Positions 9,588 to 32,648 of a stretch of DNA of 64,000 bases are shown here, piece after piece. The stretch is taken from positions 310,001 to 374,000 of the forward strand of contig NZ_CP029462.1 of NCBI RefSeq assembly GCF_003367905.1, given 5' to 3'. The notes below the pieces were generated by a model. The model saw only the letters and a program-made list of their open reading frames with translations. It was not told the DNA's origin and did no database searches. How positions within the stretch are numbered: position 1 is the first letter of the stretch; the number at the start of each line of letters is the position of its first letter. The stretch is from Megasphaera stantonii (GTDB lineage: Bacteria; Bacillota; Negativicutes; Veillonellales; Megasphaeraceae). The position numbers were made by a program, and so were the translations under genes.

Positions 9588-9672
9588 GTATATTCCAATG
9601 CAAAAACGCTCCCTTACGGCAGACGACCGTGCCGTCCTCGCAAGGGAGCTATGGGAAATTCCCGGTATGTTC

Positions 9673-10565
9673 TTACCCTCTGTAGGAAAGATTATTCGAT
9701 TCCACTTCGTCGGGAGCCGTCCTGACATGGCCTTTTACAACCGTTCCGTCACCTTTAATATACGGCCGGACCGTCACCGTAGGCTCGTCGGCATAGGGAT
9801 TTATATAAGAGGAATGGTTGACGTGAGCCCCATGAACGGCGTCATAGGACACTCCGGCGCTGGGATATACGCCGGGATGCACGGTAATGCCGCTGTGAAC
9901 GGTATCAGGATATATAGGAGGCCGTACGATAATACCATCGTGAACGACGTCAGGAGAAGCCGCAGTTCCCGGATATGCAGCAGGACGGACTGCGACGCCG
10001 CTGTGGACGACGTCGGGGGCGGCGCAGCGTCAGGATATACGTCGGGACTTACGACTACGTCGCCGTGAACAACAGGGATTTTTAAGAAGGGCAAGACAAA
10101 AACGACGACCAGCAGCGGCACCAAGCCCATAATGCCGAAGGCCTGCTTCGTCGTATAGCCCATTCGATACAGCCATTTTAATATGACATGCAGCACGAGG
10201 ACTGCTGCAGCAGCTAGGGCATACGTCGTATAGCCGAGAAGGCCTATATGGGACGCGCCAAAGGCTGCGAGAACGCCGTACACATAGGCCCCGGCCAAAA
10301 TAGCGTACATATTTCGGATGATAAACCGTATGCGCATTATAAAAAATACGACGGCCAGTATAAAGGCCACAGGAGCCAAAAAGGGAAAGAGGACGCACAG
10401 CCCGCCGATTATCACGGCCAAGACGACGATCATCTTCAGTACCTGAAAGGACGTGACCAAAAAGAATACCAAAGCGGCGCCTGCCGCAAACAGCGGCGAC
10501 GTACCGGCCAGGACGAGGGCGATAAAATACAGTACTAAAAAGCTTGCGTGCATCGTCTTGTTCAT
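9673..10565 (-). CDS. Multi-span membrane protein with VVHxGxxVxPxxYP repeat tail, frameshifted
   Basis: I do not recognise the family. From the ATG at 10565 (AGGAGG upstream) the first ~165 residues form about six hydrophobic segments. A tail of repeats follows: VVHGDVVVSPDVYP, then after a one-base shift VVHSGVAVRPAAYP, VVHDGIIVRPPIYP, VHSGITVHPGVYP and a degenerate copy. It ends with a small motif (RPYIKGDGTVVKGHVRT) like those ending other short bacterial proteins. As sequenced the frame breaks in a run of five G at 10015-10019 (C on the coding strand). One more base would restore a continuous 297-residue protein that stops at 9673. Without it the frame continues as unrelated sequence to 9801. 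It lies 20 bases behind the HTH regulator gene and is probably co-transcribed with it. Confidence 0.7.
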
Positions 10566-32033: not shown

Positions 32034-32648
32034 TTATGCTTGCGTGCCTTTGACGACGCCGCCTTCAATGCGGAGCTTGTCGTCGCAGAACAGAGAAACG
32101 GCTTTGATAAATGTAGGATGTTCCTTCGTCAAGATACGGGCCGCCAGCGTATCTTCCGTGTCGTCGTCCATAACGGGGACAGACGACTGCAGAATAATCG
32201 GGCCGGCGTCCATATCGGGAACAACGAAGTGAACGGTGCAGCCGGCAATTTTTACGCCCGCTTCCAAAGCCTGGCGCTGGGCGTGCAGGCCGCGGAAGGA
32301 CGGCAGCAATGCCGGATGGATATTGATGATTTTATGTTCGTAGCGGGAAATGAAATCGCCGCTGAGAAGCCGCATAAACCCGGCCAGGCAGATGACGTCG
32401 GCCTGATACGGCGCAATCTGGTCGAGGATAAACTGTTCAAACTCCGCCTTGGAGCCAAACTGCTTGCGGTCTGCCAGGATAACCGGCACACCCCATTCCC
32501 TGGCCCGGTCCATGACAGGCGCGCCGGGAATATCGCAGACCAGCGCCTTGACTTCGGCATTAATAGCGCCGGCTTCCACGGCGTCATGCAGGGCGACGGC
32601 ATTGGAGCCGCGGCCCGAAGCAAAGATGACCATGCGCTTCTTAGTCAT
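32034..32648 (-). CDS. purN: Phosphoribosylglycinamide formyltransferase
   Basis: Transfers a formyl group from 10-formyl-tetrahydrofolate to GAR. The 204-residue protein has the N-terminal [14 protein letters not shown] block and the catalytic Asn-His-Asp set in [24 protein letters not shown] and DMDAGPII. The ATG at 32648 overlaps the purM stop (ATGACTAA) and has GGGAGG upstream; a longer in-frame start lies inside purM. Confidence 0.96.

Follow-up and report, generated by a model that had tools for sequence, protein, structure and literature searches.

A membrane-protein gene of Megasphaera stantonii lies on the minus strand of the 64,000-nucleotide stretch of DNA analyzed here (the window; 53.9% G+C, in a genome of 2,652,760 bases) and is split just before its tail by a small break in the reading frame. 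In all probability, the locus corresponds to a single gene for a repeat-tailed membrane protein with one small break, which stems either from a very recent mutation inactivating the gene or from a consensus error, and is not a switch. The single gene would encode a multi-pass membrane protein with a hydrophilic tail in which four short repeats are followed by a conserved C-terminal motif. Its one small frame break would fall between positions 10032 and 10012, most likely in a run of five C, and, if the break is real, the ribosome would read into an unrelated run-on of 72 codons and the native tail would be lost.

Two reading frames sharing one repeat

The open reading frame (ORF) in frame 0 extends from an ATG at 10565 to 9801 and encodes 254 amino acids. 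Its first part (P0001, 10565–10020, 182 codons) translates into a hydrophobic multi-pass domain, for which homologues are found in seven other genomes of the order, followed by the first repeat unit, VVHGDVVVSPDVYP. Past the break, frame 0 runs on for 72 codons and a stop at 9803–9801 (P0003, 10019–9801), giving an unrelated, partly hydrophobic sequence. The tail frame (P0002, 10029–9673) is the -1 frame relative to frame 0; a stop lies immediately upstream of 10029, after which the frame stays open through 118 codons (10029–9676) until the stop at 9675–9673, encoding three repeat units and a C-terminal motif common to the homologues. The offset between the membrane-domain frame (10565–10020) and the tail frame (10029–9676) is one base. 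Hydrophobicity analysis displayed several hydrophobic segments in the membrane domain, none of the corresponding peaks in the hydrophilic tail, and hydrophobic peaks again in the run-on. Both frames described by an earlier reading of the sequence alone, one before 10019 and one after 10015, are thus confirmed as the frame-0 ORF 10565–9801 and the open -1 frame 10029–9673.

The two frames are tied together by a short repeat. The motif VHx[GD]xxVxPxxYP occurs exactly four times in the six frames of the whole window, and all four copies are at the split gene, one in frame 0 (10070) and three in the tail frame (10008, 9945 and 9900). The units retrieved by this motif search are VVHGDVVVSPDVYP at 10073–10032 in frame 0, and VVHSGVAVRPAAYP at 10011–9970, VVHDGIIVRPPIYP at 9948–9907 and TVHSGITVHPGVYP at 9903–9862 in the tail frame. 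The best match of unit 1 within the tail covers 28 of 42 bases, a value reached by none of 2000 dinucleotide shuffles of the tail (maximum 27, mean 19.6). As the DNA spacings between successive units are 62, 63 and 45 bases, only the first is out of frame. Summed over the six pairs of units, differences at codon positions 1, 2 and 3 number 24, 24 and 41, respectively, a bias as would be expected if the motif itself was conserved. The four copies straddling the break, one in frame 0 and three in the tail frame, bear out the earlier claim that both frames carry the same repeat.

The repeats also delimit the break. With 10032 as the last base of unit 1 in frame 0 and 10011 as the first base of unit 2 in the other frame, the break must lie between 10032 and 10012, and the tail frame is open only from 10029. 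This interval includes the five-C run at 10019–10015, which is the obvious candidate and the likeliest site, although other positions within the interval would fit the data too. The sequence-only reading had placed the break exactly at a missing base in this run; the run does lie inside the interval, yet the exact base is not proven. Codon usage was also considered as a means of locating the break. Taken alone, the codon-usage model locates the frame switch near 9903 instead of near 10015, and from about 10015 to 9903 the codon statistics do not favour the tail frame. As this disagrees with the repeats, codon usage was rejected as a locator, the repeats and the relatives together outweighing the placement near 9903.

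Gene end, relatives and neighbourhood

The tail carries a conserved C-terminal motif, Y...DG..V.......PD....NN.S..G, at 9777–9676, as defined by comparison with homologues, and the tail frame ends in PDEVESNNLSYRG, a variant of the PDGIxxNNxSYHG found in homologues. Pairwise BLASTP against three homologues gave E values of 3e-5, 2e-4 and 8e-6, each from a single comparison. Starting 23 bases past the tail-frame stop, a hairpin resembling a Rho-independent terminator, then GTTTTTG, is found at 9649–9608. The predicted fold has an energy of -30.6 kcal/mol and a z score of -4.74, with none of 200 shuffles as stable, while a simple consensus terminator scan did not list it. Because the conserved end motif and this terminator-like hairpin accompany the tail-frame stop, the tail frame is considered the real end of the gene.

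Within the family, 5 of the 16 other genomes contain the membrane part (17 searched, including its own). When 61 genomes of the order, again including its own, were searched with an alignment-based method, the membrane domain was identified in seven others (G002, G004, G007, G010, G011, G022 and G024) and the tail motif without the membrane domain in one further genome (G021). In all seven, domain and tail are in one frame with no internal stop, within open frames of 306–452 codons, and all seven tails contain PDGIxxNNxSYHG. The blocks FPFLAP and LPF.K are conserved in the membrane domain, as seen in an alignment that took in five of the seven homologues. The present gene shares with this family both the membrane domain with its FPFLAP and LPF.K blocks and the hydrophilic tail with PDGIxxNNxSYHG. 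However, the family members are unbroken, have other tail lengths and extend past the motif, whereas the present gene ends at the motif and carries the VHxGxxVxPxxYP repeats. The locus displays two marks of a gene disrupted by a frameshift: its parts are recognizable as one protein by the repeats on both sides and the conserved end motif, and unbroken homologues exist elsewhere (all seven with the domain, among the 61 genomes searched). A former continuous protein of about 297 residues, as the earlier reading had proposed, is well supported by the repeats and the seven unbroken homologues.

Pfam returned only matches below its cutoff, e.g., DUF2897 and DUF3892, NCBIfam and PHROGs had no match to the protein of the split gene, and a PDB profile search gave nothing better than E 0.31. 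Searching the 17 family genomes with the tail only produced weak matches (E 0.03–0.38), which were not counted. No same-species or near copies were retrieved from genome_contigs with an exact 25-base pattern or P0001, nor from viral_contigs with a gapped pattern across the run or P0002. In a DNA search of 15 genomes of the genus, the only match outside its own genome was one 107-base stretch at 71%, so the run itself has no close relative for comparison. When 16-kb stretches of five relatives were inspected, the membrane gene was the only ORF of the window with strong matches; two other window ORFs matched at 20–30% identity.

The genome with the tail motif only encodes a small protein (G021:C31, L039, open frame from 1396, 82 codons) that shares the motif as Y...DG..V and PDG..NNYS. 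It is apparently secreted, as it looks like it begins with a signal peptide, and from this signal-peptide-like start it could be suggested that the tail resides outside the cytoplasm. The small protein also hints that the motif may form a small extracytoplasmic module.

Upstream, on the same strand, 12082–10586 encodes a 498-amino-acid protein whose N-terminal part weakly matches an HTH model (HTH_3, E 0.03, below the Pfam cutoff); this gene stops 20 bases short of the membrane gene and may belong to the same operon. The family of this protein is multi-copy, present at three places in its own genome and in 12 of the 17 family genomes (own included), and, in the stretches examined from five relatives, none of its copies adjoins the membrane gene. 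Copies in two relatives (G001:C112:40532-41992 and G002:C1:761787-763175) contain one in-frame TGA each; broken copies thus exist in the neighbour's family too.

Origin of the frame break

In 264 kb of the genome, comprising the window and 10 stretches with 173 ORFs of at least 200 codons after overlap removal, a coding-frame scan flagged four places, the split gene among them. Two of the others look like ordinary neighbouring gene pairs, as judged by eye from their translations. The remaining flag, at 32617 on the plus strand, faces a gene boundary of the minus strand at about 32648, likewise judged by eye. An initial, less strict pass gave more flags, mostly at ordinary gene ends or on the strand opposite a gene. 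This crude scan recovered 33 of 55 simulated one-base losses, a rate at which about four in ten would go undetected. With four flags in 264 kb, the assembly is not riddled with breaks, though one consensus error could still be present. The undecayed tail is equally consistent with such an error and with a very recent mutation, and the two are rated about equal; we infer that any genuine change would be recent. The sequence-only reading had offered recent mutation or sequencing error as an alternative to switching, and this alternative is judged the better one.

Phase variation would require a reversible exchange of the repeat tail for the run-on end through slippage in the C run. Simple-repeat contingency loci are phase-variable genes, and the present gene resembles them in that the frame break is at or near a homopolymer in a gene for a membrane protein, here one with repeats. 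Yet known contingency tracts are usually longer than five bases, and the tract here is not unusually long: the 64-kb window contains 31 comparable G/C runs, 27 of them five and 4 of them six bases long. In addition, all seven relatives with the membrane domain are unbroken. A switch of this kind is very unlikely, and the earlier suggestion of one finds no support, the five-base run being ordinary and no relative being broken. Similarly little probability is given to slippage at the short run, in DNA or during transcription, by which a fraction of cells or messages would make the repeat-tailed form.

The tail being in the -1 frame, open and conserved, could also be accommodated by programmed -1 ribosomal frameshifting, yielding both a short and a full-length protein. 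However, inspection by eye of the zero frame on either side of the run revealed no canonical X XXY YYZ heptamer, the downstream RNA is not unusually stable (z -0.50, with 57 of 200 shuffles as stable, in a pseudoknot-free fold test), and the seven homologues are all continuous and need no shift, making such frameshifting extremely improbable. It is scarcely credible that the locus instead holds two genes, one for the 254-amino-acid membrane protein and one for a separate small tail protein: while the tail frame has a listed GTG start at 9882 and the codon model changes frame near 9903, the first tail repeats precede this GTG, no Shine-Dalgarno-like start was picked up by the scan close to the codon-model switch, and relatives have the motif fused to the membrane domain.

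For annotation, the consequence of the preferred reading, a single gene with one break, is one interrupted membrane-protein gene and not two. Were slippage nevertheless true, the strain would be varying the surface tail of an order-specific membrane protein. More broadly, the locus points to a membrane-protein family with a conserved tail motif, known so far from this order, the sole order that was profile-searched.
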